Source of the DNA: an uncultured Acidimicrobiales bacterium
Lineage (GTDB): Bacteria > Actinomycetota > Acidimicrobiia > Acidimicrobiales > SZUA-35
Length of the DNA stretch: 45,658 nucleotides
Direction: 5' to 3'
Assembly (NCBI GenBank): GCA_937958015.1
Contig: CALGOA010000008.1
Location: forward strand, 1 to 45,658
This document shows positions 5,304 through 30,366 of the stretch, piece after piece. The position numbers were made by a program, and so were the translations under genes. The notes beneath the pieces are model-generated. The model saw nothing but the letters and a program-made list of their open reading frames with translations, searched no databases and was not told the DNA's origin. How positions within the stretch are numbered: position 1 is the stretch's first letter; each line of letters starts with the position of its first letter.

Positions 5304-6167
5304 TCAGTCGAGCAGTTTGATCAGGCTGCTGGTGTCCCACCGGTTTCCGCCCTGGGCTTGAATCTGGGCATACAGCTGATCCACCAGGGCCGCCACGGGG
5401 ACCGATGCCCCCAGAGAGTGGGCCTGATCGATGGCAATCCGCAGATCTTTGCGCATCCAGTCAACGGCGAATCCAAAGTCGAATTCATCGGCCACCATGG
5501 TCCGACCACGGTTGTCCATCTGCCACGAACCTGCCGCACCCTTGGAGATCGTGTCCAACACGATGTCCATATCAAGACCTGCTTTGACACCCAGAGCAAT
5601 CCCTTCGCTCAAGCCCTGGAGCAGGCCGGCGATCGACAGCTGGTTGACCATCTTGCATAGCTGGCCTGAGCCTGCACCACCGATTCTGGTGACCGCCACC
5701 GCAAAGGCATCGATCACCGGCGCAACGGCGTCGAAGTGTTCGACTTCGCCGCCACACATCACGGTGAGTTTTCCGTTCTGAGCGCCCGCCTCGCCGCCCG
5801 AGACGGGGGCGTCCACGAACCCAAATCCTCGTTGATCACACGTGGCGTCGAGAACACGGGCAAGGTCGGCCGAGGCGGTGGTGTGGTCCACAAGGATCGC
5901 GCCCGGTTTCATCCCCTCAAGCGCTCCGTCGTCGCCGAATACGACCGCGCGGACATCGTCATCGGCTCCCACGATCGTGATCACAATCTCGGCGCCTACC
6001 GCTGACTCCCTGGGGGTTGGCGCGGTCGATCCCCCGTACTCAGCCGCCCACGCATCGGCCTTGGCCGAGGTTCGGTTGTAGACGGTGACCGAGTGGCCAG
6101 CGTTTTGAAGATGCCCCGCCATCGGATAACCCATGACGCCGAGACCAATGAACCCAATGGATGCCAT
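5304..6167 (-). CDS. 3-hydroxyisobutyrate / beta-hydroxyacid dehydrogenase family protein
   Basis: 287 aa from ATG 6167 ([18 protein letters not shown]), which matches the usual family length. The frame is open further upstream but only as low-complexity Arg/Gly-rich sequence. Domains: N-terminal Rossmann NAD(P) domain with GxGxMG (residues 6-11), then DAPVSGGEAGAQNGKL substrate motif, GSGQLCKMVNQ with the catalytic Lys, and a C-terminal all-alpha domain with DNRG and WMRKDL. Family members reduce or oxidise 3-hydroxy acids such as 3-hydroxyisobutyrate or tartronate semialdehyde; the exact substrate is unknown. Its 5' end overlaps the reported long frame of the divergent Thr-rich protein. Confidence 0.88.
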   Translation of the reverse strand: MASIGFIGLGVMGYPMAGHLQNAGHSVTVYNRTSAKADAWAAEYGGSTAPTPRESAVGAEIVITIVGADDDVRAVVFGDDGALEGMKPGAILVDHTTASADLARVLDATCDQRGFGFVDAPVSGGEAGAQNGKLTVMCGGEVEHFDAVAPVIDAFAVAVTRIGGAGSGQLCKMVNQLSIAGLLQGLSEGIALGVKAGLDMDIVLDTISKGAAGSWQMDNRGRTMVADEFDFGFAVDWMRKDLRIAIDQAHSLGASVPVAALVDQLYAQIQAQGGNRWDTSSLIKLLD

Positions 6168-27795: not shown

Positions 27796-28179
27796 TCAGA
27801 CGTCGGCGGGCCCGACGTACACCCAGCGGCCCACATGGCGTTGAAACAGGCTCTTCTCGCTTTGGGCCCCGGGTTCACCACCTTCGACGAAGGCGGCGGT
27901 GAAGCTCACGGTCCCGGTTGAATCAAACGCTCCGCCTTCGCTGGTGTCGTGAATGGTGAGACCGGTCCACTGGCGTCCACCGTCGGCATGAATGACCCGG
28001 GGAGTGCGGTTCGGAAGCCAGGAGTGTCGCAGGTATCCGATATCCGACTTCGCAAAGGCCGAATACCTCGACCGCATCAGATCCTCGGCGGTAACGGCCG
28101 GTTTCCGCCCGCTGTGGATCGCGCCGCAACACTCGACGTACGTCTGCCCTCGTCCACAGGGACACAGTTCGACACTCAT
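27796..28179 (-). CDS. YchJ-family SEC-C motif protein
   Basis: 127 aa from ATG 28179 (MSVELCPCGRGQTYVECCG). The CPCGRG...CCG Zn-binding SEC-C motif is at residues 6-18, followed by AVTAEDLMRSRYSAFAKSD..YL..SW, the hallmark of the UPF0225/YchJ family with an NTF2-like domain. Family function is not established. The longer frame to 28377 adds only unrelated sequence. Confidence 0.88.
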   Translation of the reverse strand: MSVELCPCGRGQTYVECCGAIHSGRKPAVTAEDLMRSRYSAFAKSDIGYLRHSWLPNRTPRVIHADGGRQWTGLTIHDTSEGGAFDSTGTVSFTAAFVEGGEPGAQSEKSLFQRHVGRWVYVGPADV

Positions 28180-28234
28180 GTCCCCAAACGGTAGCGGGAC
28201 AAATTCCTGCATCTGAATTGAACACAGTGGCGCA

Positions 28235-28774
28235 GTGGCAGGTGTGCGTGTGAAAGAACGACCGATGTCCCGACGGGCCGTAGCGCCCGCGCCCGACCGG
28301 CTCGGGGTGTTTTCGATGCCCGAACCCTCGCTGCCTGAATCCTCAAATGCCGCGGCGTCGCAACCGTTGCGGGTCAAGACGGTGCAACGAACCGAGGAAC
28401 GGTCTCACCGGCTCCGCGAACTCGTCACCGACACCCTCATGATTGGACCGGTGATGGGGGCCACCCGGCGCCGCGTCTCGATTGGCGCCGGTGCGGTGGC
28501 GTTCGTGCTCGTCGGCATGGTTCTGGCCCCCGCTCTGGGCGGTACCGATCCCGCACCGGTCGACGCTGTTCCTGCCGGGCTGGTCCTCACCTCTCCAGAC
28601 GCCCCGGTGGCCAGCACTCCCCTGCCATCCATTCAGTCGCGTCCCCTCGCACCGACGACGACGCTGCCGACCACCTCGATCTCGCTCGCCCCACCAACCA
28701 CGATCGCCGACATCACCCCGACGACCGAGGCCCCTCGGGTGCTGGGTAAGGGAACGCTGAGTCAGAACGACTGA
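28235..28774 (+). CDS. Single-pass membrane protein with Thr/Pro-rich tail
   Basis: 179 aa from GTG 28235; ATG 28265 (MSRRAVAPAPD) is an equally plausible start. A charged cytoplasmic part of about 80 residues (RTEERSHRLRELVTD) precedes one TM helix (about 84-102, IGAGAVAFVLVGMVLAPAL) and a Thr/Pro/Ser-rich extracytoplasmic tail (TTTLPTTSISLAPPTT). No family recognised. It lies directly upstream of the retron-like RNA (36 nt), on the same strand. Whether it belongs to the retron or is an independent host gene cannot be told from one sequence. Confidence 0.65.
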   Translation: MAGVRVKERPMSRRAVAPAPDRLGVFSMPEPSLPESSNAAASQPLRVKTVQRTEERSHRLRELVTDTLMIGPVMGATRRRVSIGAGAVAFVLVGMVLAPALGGTDPAPVDAVPAGLVLTSPDAPVASTPLPSIQSRPLAPTTTLPTTSISLAPPTTIADITPTTEAPRVLGKGTLSQND

Positions 28775-28809
28775 ATCCGCAACTACACCGCTGTTAGGGT
28801 CTTGGTAAT

Positions 28810-28824
28810 GGCGGAACGTTCTGA
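28810..28824 (+). repeat. Retron a1 (inverted repeat, left)
   Basis: GGCGGAACGTTCTGA, perfectly complementary to 28955-28969. Flanking bases do not extend the pairing on either side (T/T outside, G/G inside). Confidence 0.85.
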
Positions 28825-28954
28825 GCCTGGCAACGGACCTGCGGTCCAACGCCACCTCCGGGGTACCCCCGGGGAGTCGAAGTGGTGCCTAGCCATCGCG
28901 TCGAATGCAAATTGGCAGGCTGCGCCTGCGTCCCTGCACTCACAACAAACCGAG

Positions 28955-28969
28955 TCAGAACGTTCCGCC
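28955..28969 (+). repeat. Retron a2 (inverted repeat, right)
   Basis: TCAGAACGTTCCGCC, the perfect reverse complement of 28810-28824. In retrons the pairing of a1 with a2 places the branching G next to the RT priming site. Confidence 0.85.
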
Positions 28970-28986
28970 TCTCTTCGCCGCCGCTC

Positions 28987-30366
28987 ATGACCCGGGTACC
29001 GGCCCATCGGATCGCTGCTAGACGGCGCCGTCGCGTGGCCGAGATCATCGCCACCGCCTTCATCGACGGCGCCTGGCATCCCCCACTCATGGCCGGCAGG
29101 GCCGCCCACGATCTGGGCCTGGACCGGAGCCCGAGACCGATGGTTCCTCCCCGTTGGCTCGCCGACCAAGCGGCACTGGTCACCGCCGAATGGCCCGACC
29201 CGGTGGAGGATCCCCGACCACTGGCCAATCGCCTTCGGACCGAACTAGATCAACTGGAGCCCGAGGACGACCAACTCCTTCGATGGATGAATGGGATACC
29301 CCGTGTTCCCGGTTCGTCCTGGGAACCACCCAAGATCTTTCGGTTGCTCACCATTGCAATGGACGAGCCGCGCTGGCCCGTCCGCACGATCGACACCGTC
29401 GGCGACCTTGCTCGTATGTTCGGACTGGATGTGAACGAGTTGCTCTGGTACGCAGACGTCAAGTCGTTGGAACGCTCGGTGGAGTCGGAAAATCTACGGC
29501 ACTACAGCTATCGCTGGGTCCCCAAACAGCGGGGTGGATCCCGTCTACTGGAGATCCCGAAGCAGAACCTGAAAACCTTCCAACGCCAGATCCTCGCAGA
29601 CATCCTGAACCACATCCCACCCCATCGGGCCGCCCACGGGTTCACCGTCGGCCGATCGATCCAGTCCTACGTCGCCCCCCACTGCGCCCAATCGGTGGTA
29701 ATACGGCTGGACCTTCGGAACTTCTTCGCAACCGTCCCGATGAATCAGGTGATCGCCATTTTCCGATCGTGTGGGTACGCCAACGAAGTAGCCCATCTGC
29801 TCGCAGGGCTCACCACCAACTCGGCCCCACGCAAGGTGCTTTCGGGACACGGCGAAGATGTCCTTCGGGGCCCACACCTTCCGCAGGGATCACCGACATC
29901 GCCGGCACTCGCCAACCTGGCGGTGTATCAACTCGACGCACGACTGACCGGCTTGGCGAAACGATTCGAGGCTCGATACACCAGATACGCAGACGACCTC
30001 GCCTTCAGCGGCCCCCATGATCTACTGCGCAGGTCCGACCGATTCGTCGAACTGGTGACCTCGATCGTCCGGGACGAGGGATATGCGATCAACCCCAGGA
30101 AGACGTCGATTCGGTCCCAGAGCGACCGCCAGGTGCTCACGGGCCTGGTGGTGAATCAACACCCAAATATTCACCGAACCGACTACGACCGGCTTCGAGC
30201 CATCCTCCACGACGCCAGCATCAACGGCGCCACCGCCGCCAATCGGTCGGGACACCCTCAGTTCCGTTCGTACCTGCAGGGCCACATCGGCTTTGTGCAG
30301 TCCACGAATCCGAACCGGGCGATCAAACTGTGGCGGCTGTTCGATGCGATCGATTGGTCCTCCTAG
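28987..30366 (+). CDS. Retron-type reverse transcriptase with long N-terminal extension
   Basis: 459 aa from ATG 28987; the frame runs back to 28882 through the RNA, so this first ATG after a2 is preferred although no clear Shine-Dalgarno is seen. Residues 1-130: a basic helical extension. RT domain about 135-400: VPKQRGGSRLLEIPK, AHGFTVGRSI (216-225), RLDLRNFF with catalytic Asp242, LPQGSPTSPALANL, and YTRYADDLAF with Asp336/Asp337. LTGL (384-387) is the retron region-Y motif (usually VTGL). Region X, normally NAxxH, reads YVAPH (228-232). The C-terminal thumb ends IKLWRLFDAIDW. The extension and the APR..GP insertion before LPQG resemble myxobacterial retron RTs (from memory). It would make branched msDNA from the upstream RNA. 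Confidence 0.93.
   Translation: MTRVPAHRIAARRRRRVAEIIATAFIDGAWHPPLMAGRAAHDLGLDRSPRPMVPPRWLADQAALVTAEWPDPVEDPRPLANRLRTELDQLEPEDDQLLRWMNGIPRVPGSSWEPPKIFRLLTIAMDEPRWPVRTIDTVGDLARMFGLDVNELLWYADVKSLERSVESENLRHYSYRWVPKQRGGSRLLEIPKQNLKTFQRQILADILNHIPPHRAAHGFTVGRSIQSYVAPHCAQSVVIRLDLRNFFATVPMNQVIAIFRSCGYANEVAHLLAGLTTNSAPRKVLSGHGEDVLRGPHLPQGSPTSPALANLAVYQLDARLTGLAKRFEARYTRYADDLAFSGPHDLLRRSDRFVELVTSIVRDEGYAINPRKTSIRSQSDRQVLTGLVVNQHPNIHRTDYDRLRAILHDASINGATAANRSGHPQFRSYLQGHIGFVQSTNPNRAIKLWRLFDAIDWSS

Follow-up and report, generated by a model that had tools for sequence, protein, structure and literature searches.

A probable single-gene retron of the RT_other/RT_outgroup branch, with a conserved and covarying msr-msd RNA, in an uncultured Acidimicrobiales bacterium

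Positions 28810-30366 of a 45,658-nt stretch of DNA (hereafter the window) very probably constitute a complete retron that consists of one gene and its RNA, and that works by the mechanism proposed below. The retron belongs to the kind that PADLOC lists as RT_other/RT_outgroup, a branch that is widespread but uncharacterised. A conserved, covarying RNA lies directly upstream of a reverse transcriptase (RT) of retron family and fold, the RNA/RT association is one-to-one, and the unit occurs patchily, with empty sites in related genomes. The coordinates of the features are collected in Table 1.

In the proposed mechanism, a promoter just upstream of the a1 arm would drive the co-transcription of msr-msd and the RT. 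The a1 and a2 arms would pair, and the RT would bind the folded RNA, in which the CCGGGG/CCCCGG hairpin is conserved. It would then prime from the 2'-OH of G28825 and copy the template leftwards from about position 28954, giving a short branched msDNA that would stay bound to the RT. An effector or sensing role would fall to the helical N-terminal domain of the RT, about 105 residues long, or to a host protein. This role would most likely be in phage defence, and the retron unit as a whole would move between genomic sites.

Table 1. Features of the retron locus, with coordinates in the window.
Feature	Coordinates	Strand	Basis or remark
Probable complete retron locus	28810-30366	+	uncultured Acidimicrobiales bacterium, contig CALGOA010000008.1
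Candidate -10 element TAGGGT	28795-28800	+	9 nt upstream of a1; sequence only
Whole msr-msd RNA, 160 nt	28810-28969	+	fold z -4.0, relatives' alignments, covariance model
a1 arm GGCGGAACGTTCTGA	28810-28824	+	pairs with 28955-28969
Predicted priming (2'-OH branching) guanosine	28825	+	directly 3' of a1, in TGAGCC (GAGC)
msr hairpin CTCCGGGG-tac-CCCCGGGG	28856-28874	+	RNAalifold, 25 relatives
Predicted msd (template region)	28881-28954	+	5' end guessed; 3' end placed at the border with a2
a2 arm TCAGAACGTTCCGCC	28955-28969	+	pairs with a1
Retron reverse transcriptase, 459 aa, YADD	28987-30366	+	PADLOC profiles, fold, tree
N-terminal extension, RT residues 1-105, five predicted helices	28987-29301	+	AlphaFold model

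The msr-msd RNA and its pairing arms

The two arms form 15 bp with 100% complementarity; they are spaced 130 nt apart and enclose 160 nt overall. We simulated 300 first-order Markov sequences modelled on positions 28701-28990 and searched each for exact inverted repeats whose arms are separated by 60 nt or more. The longest of these averaged 7.3 bp and reached 10 bp at most, and the observed 15-bp repeat is far beyond chance. Folded as a single strand, positions 28795-28985 gave -87.1 kcal/mol, against -70.0 +/- 4.3 kcal/mol for shuffled sequences (z -4.0), and none of the 200 shuffles reached the observed energy. The initial annotation had described a perfect 15-bp repeat around a 160-nt stretch with stable hairpins, a candidate branching G directly after the left arm, and an RT reading frame starting 17 nt downstream of the right arm. 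The repeat coordinates were exact, and the folding energy, the G at 28825 and the ATG at 28987 agreed with the description.

The same order of elements was found in the relatives: a1, a G, a variable stem, the CTCCGGGG/CCCCGGGG hairpin and a CATCGC-like stretch, followed further 3' by a GC-rich msd stem, GTCGG, and a2 a few nucleotides upstream of the RT start. The nearly invariant msr hairpin is the most conserved element of this RNA family; in the RNAalifold analysis its 8 pairs were kept in essentially all 25 sequences, and changes on both sides were rare. The msd contains a conserved TGCA...GCAGGC/GCCTGC...TGCA stem near 28905-28937 with a conserved GTC at its 3' edge, and 8 of the 10 pairs of this stem carry both-side changes among the 25 relatives. 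Over the whole structure, 19 of 26 pairs showed both-side changes in at least one of the 25 sequences. This was true for all eight RNAalifold pairs of a1/a2, the sequence of which varies among the relatives with the pairing maintained.

Since the MAFFT alignment (A3) misplaces a1 for the window and for one relative (L025), the pairing of the arms was also tested independently of it. Two controls were run, because arms that are chosen by pairing are biased towards pairing. The first gave a score of 13.2 for arms of the same locus against 9.4 +/- 1.9 for arms of different loci, and the window's own pairing beat all 68 foreign partners. For the second control, with 62 loci, the a2 position was set by a covariance model that excludes the arms. 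Own arms then scored 12.1, foreign arms 7.2 +/- 2.2 and shuffled arms 6.3 +/- 1.4; the window scored 15.0, which no foreign upstream sequence equalled. Homologues therefore keep the a1/a2 pairing with compensatory changes, as indicated by both the both-side changes and the advantage of own over foreign arms. The base directly 3' of a1 is G in 49 of the 62 relatives, with GC at this place in 38. Just upstream of a1, within about 38 nt, most relatives have a TAnnnT hexamer, which in the actinobacterial ones is frequently TAGGGT or TAGGCT; its presence there in most loci suggests a conserved promoter.

The initial annotation had proposed a covariance search of the retron RNA region. Our model R1, built from the 25 core sequences with the arms excluded and run on 80 sources, matched 66 of 67 clade loci. 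Once the window and loci nearly identical to training sequences were set aside, 60 of the 61 held-out clade loci were matched. The 13 control RT loci (three other-type myxobacterial RTs, other plasmid retrons, and group II, RT-Cas1 or comparable RTs) gave no match. R1 matched the window at 28854-28958 with 79.4 bits, the only match across its 4.17-Mb assembly (88.7% complete), in which one strong RT was found as well. Rfam gave no family at the gathering threshold in the window, and none at E 5 within 28700-29050; the RNA family, derived from the 25 relatives, is absent from Rfam 15.

A few loci have unusual arrangements. In L046 the R1 match (5817-5923, minus strand) lies on the strand opposite the RT, and L053, the sequence of which contains N, has a weak match. 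In L103 (4583-4684) and L087 (5227-5330) the distance from the retron RNA to the RT downstream is about 1.3 kb and 0.6 kb, respectively, and something may be inserted between the two.

The reverse transcriptase and its relatives

The RT frame ends with a TAG stop at 30364-30366, and the YADD active site occupies residues 334-337. The best PADLOC profile, RT_other (PDLC02949), covers residues 9-458 with 498 bits (E 1e-149), followed by RT_outgroup (PDLC03740) with 467 bits; the next type, RT_XIII, scores 311 bits. RT_other was matched by all 53 aligned relatives, and RT_other/RT_outgroup is the best profile for the window and these relatives with the N-terminal extension included. Matches to the NCBIfam retron models fall below their cut-offs, and the Pfam match is RVT_1. 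The relatives were gathered by an alignment-based scan; a single-protein query had returned none.

In a PDB sequence search, the best match was the Ec86 retron RT. The same enzyme was the top Foldseek match of the AlphaFold model (mean pLDDT 90.8), with E 7e-21 and a target-normalised TM-score of 0.81; the best 18 matches are all retron RTs, and group II, DGR and DRT enzymes rank after them. A maximum-likelihood tree of 39 RTs, used for the retron/non-retron split and for near neighbours only (some of its inner joins are uncertain, and L127 was flagged as a long branch), placed the window RT with the retrons and apart from group II and RT-Cas1 at 100/100, and grouped it with other Acidimicrobiia at 99/98. 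The outgroup identities were confirmed for two group II proteins and for the RT-Cas1. The initial annotation had read the locus as the retron layout a1-msr-msd-a2-RT and had looked to RT phylogeny as a check. The RT falls inside the retrons, and RT family, fold, tree, conserved RNA and compensatory a1/a2 changes all agree with this layout.

The signature motifs of retron RTs are NAxxH and VTG, in place of which the window RT has YVAPH and LTG. In the clade, the H of the first motif is kept in 53 of 53 sequences with the N replaced by F, H, Y or G, and the G of the second in 52 of 53. Degenerate motifs of this kind, together with the lack of an effector gene, could be expected of an RT outside the retrons (DGR, DRT or derived from group II) that happens to have a hairpin upstream by chance, but tree, profiles and fold all lie among retrons, and the upstream RNA is conserved and covarying. 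We give this explanation almost no credence; it is already refuted, unless the RNA has another role, for example as a DRT-type template.

Occurrence and mobility

The clade is found in Actinomycetota, Planctomycetota, Acidobacteriota, Myxococcota, Verrucomicrobiota and Pseudomonadota, and within the family of the window's genome its retron is present in 2 of 39 genomes and missing from 37. In two genomes of the same genus (G754 and G755), aceE adjoins the ABC transporter with about 70-110 nt between them and no retron. A third (G753) has the window's site without the retron, and carries a retron with a 53% identical RT elsewhere. Against this RT identity, flanking genes of the window and the congener carrier are 79-94% identical, and the adjacent transporter genes of G753 are 83-94% identical to those of the window. 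In the window, the conserved intergenic sequence that precedes the ABC gene (CTACAGC...) picks up again 6 nt past the RT stop, so that the end of the unit essentially coincides with this stop. From these comparisons, the retron appears to be mobile, or repeatedly gained and lost, and to move between genome sites.

No transposase or recombinase that explains movement was found. The initial annotation had also seen no integrase or transposase nearby, and had suggested that this may be a stably inherited copy in a core region. That suggestion does not survive the empty sites in G754 and G755, the different location of the retron in G753 and the 37 family genomes that lack it. GC content (0.62) and GC3 (0.74) of the RT differ little from those of the neighbours, so that, if the retron was acquired, either the donor genome was similar or the event was not a recent one.

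The patchy distribution could also be read as a sign of decay, that is, of a once functional retron the window copy of which is silent and no longer makes msDNA, and in two relatives, L047 and L078, an early stop or a frameshift does disrupt the RT frame. In the window, however, the RT frame is complete and includes YADD, none of the three RNA elements is damaged, a1 and a2 are perfectly paired and a -10-like element is present, and we regard decay of this copy as improbable. In L047 and L078 the frame resumes shortly after the break, and these may be decayed copies or sequencing errors.

The aceE-ABC transporter spot itself shows further variation. In the window (region 27796-28774, compared with L106) and in G753, a YchJ/SEC-C gene lies between the two genes, as does a proline-rich ORF, the match of which is weak. 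Their order differs between the window and G753, and both are absent there in G754 and G755. The interval looks like a small hot spot for insertions.

The effector question and comparison with known retrons

Most studied retrons are accompanied by a toxin gene. We clustered 3,055 neighbouring ORFs from 83 loci, and the only gene families recurring beside the RT were common ones, for example sigma factors, kinases and ABC ATPases; any further recurrence reflects the background that four related Oxalobacteraceae share. Genes directly 3' of the RT are diverse and mostly housekeeping-like. PADLOC found no defence profile among the window's flanking genes besides generic ATPase matches, and no defence gene or island surrounds the retron in the window. 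Two neighbours were considered as effectors and rejected. The proline-rich ORF at 28235-28774 belongs to no family and has a weak 34% match at the same site in a congener that lacks the retron there. The ABC transporter has generic ATPase matches in PADLOC and is kept at the site in congeners without the retron. As there is no conserved neighbour, a dedicated effector must be within the RT, or the effector is a host protein. The clade has no nearby toxin gene, and a part of its msDNA in defence would follow by analogy with retrons as a group.

The N-terminal extension of about 105 residues is common to the RTs of the clade and was modelled with a pLDDT of 87.8. Pfam gave no match to it, and PDB searches gave none by fold and none by sequence better than E 0.1; among 296 genomes of the class, no copy separate from the RT was found. 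These absent matches do not prove a new fold. Three apparent matches were set aside: L138 and L139, candidate stand-alone N-terminal domains, are weak matches within unrelated proteins, and L016, covering RT residues 28-111 only, is a chance match on the antisense strand of a Tad-like secretion gene. The extension is the best candidate for an effector or sensor. It is conceivable, though we hold it to be somewhat unlikely, that it is itself the effector or phage sensor, which would make for a one-gene defence system with an unseen fold in several bacterial phyla. The RNA model and the predicted priming site provide exact coordinates for msDNA tests in any clade member. In hosts in which enterobacterial retrons may perform badly, the compact, high-GC actinobacterial unit of 1.6 kb could moreover be used to produce DNA.

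A review (PMC6868368) mentions retrons in Actinobacteria. PADLOC has covered the RT clade since 2023 or earlier, in library entries without effector or RNA; the present analysis describes the RNA family, its predicted priming site and the absence of any gene that accompanies the RT. Compared with Ec86 (Eco1, type II-A), the window shares the RT fold and the general layout, but in Ec86 the effector is encoded by a gene of its own and the RT lacks a 105-residue N-terminal extension; the identity to the window RT is about 25%. Mx65 of Myxococcus xanthus has a GAGC priming context and an extended N-terminus (review PMC6868368), and resembles the window in both, with the same context at G28825. Retron-Bth1 produces RT-DNA, has no obvious effector, and its RT is unclassified among retron RTs (PMC12548924); it is alike in the latter two respects and differs in that its RT is split by a group II intron.

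A query sequence that we took to be the Mx162 RT, and used as a lead only, matched over nearly its full length in two myxobacterial genomes, at 86% and 77%. These Pyxidicoccus and Corallococcus genomes carry clade members (L129/L042 and L130/L083) plus the Mx162 orthologues (L133 and L132). The orthologues score 509-513 bits with RT_XIII against about 290-298 bits with RT_other. Judged from these two genomes, and not from the query, Mx162 is therefore of PADLOC type XIII and different from the window's clade, and both coexist in the two genomes, in which they could be compared side by side.

Vertical inheritance and N-terminally extended RTs have been reported for myxobacterial retrons (PMC6868368). 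The window and Mx162/Sa163 have in common the extended RT N-terminus, the a1-msr-msd-a2-RT order and the absence of nearby mobility genes, and they differ in the N-terminal sequence, in the RT core (about 35-40% identical to the window clade) and in the RNA, which in Mx162/Sa163 has a long msd hairpin. The shared traits, and a codon-position GC near that of the neighbours, would fit a stably inherited, housekeeping-like retron of the Mx162 kind; the initial annotation had likened the locus to myxobacterial retrons. Yet the RT_XIII and RT_other scores of the window are the reverse of those of the orthologues, the orthologue RNA has no R1 match, and same-genus genomes lack the retron at the window's site; we consider this origin very improbable, and an RT_other/RT_outgroup retron remains the preferred reading.

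Other RTs turned up beside those of the clade. The Pyxidicoccus genome holds three retron-type RTs (L129, L131 and L133), of which L131 has another kind of N-terminal region and matches RT_XIII best. In another genome of the same order, L010 (G035:C30:7993-8613 onward) is an RT-Cas1 fusion, in which a group II-like RT is followed by the CRISPR adaptation protein Cas1. Within the window's clade, L126 (Tsukamurella plasmid NZ_LR134447.1), L021 and L022 form a deeper actinobacterial subgroup, in which one member lies on a 250-kb plasmid and the RNA match is shorter or more divergent.
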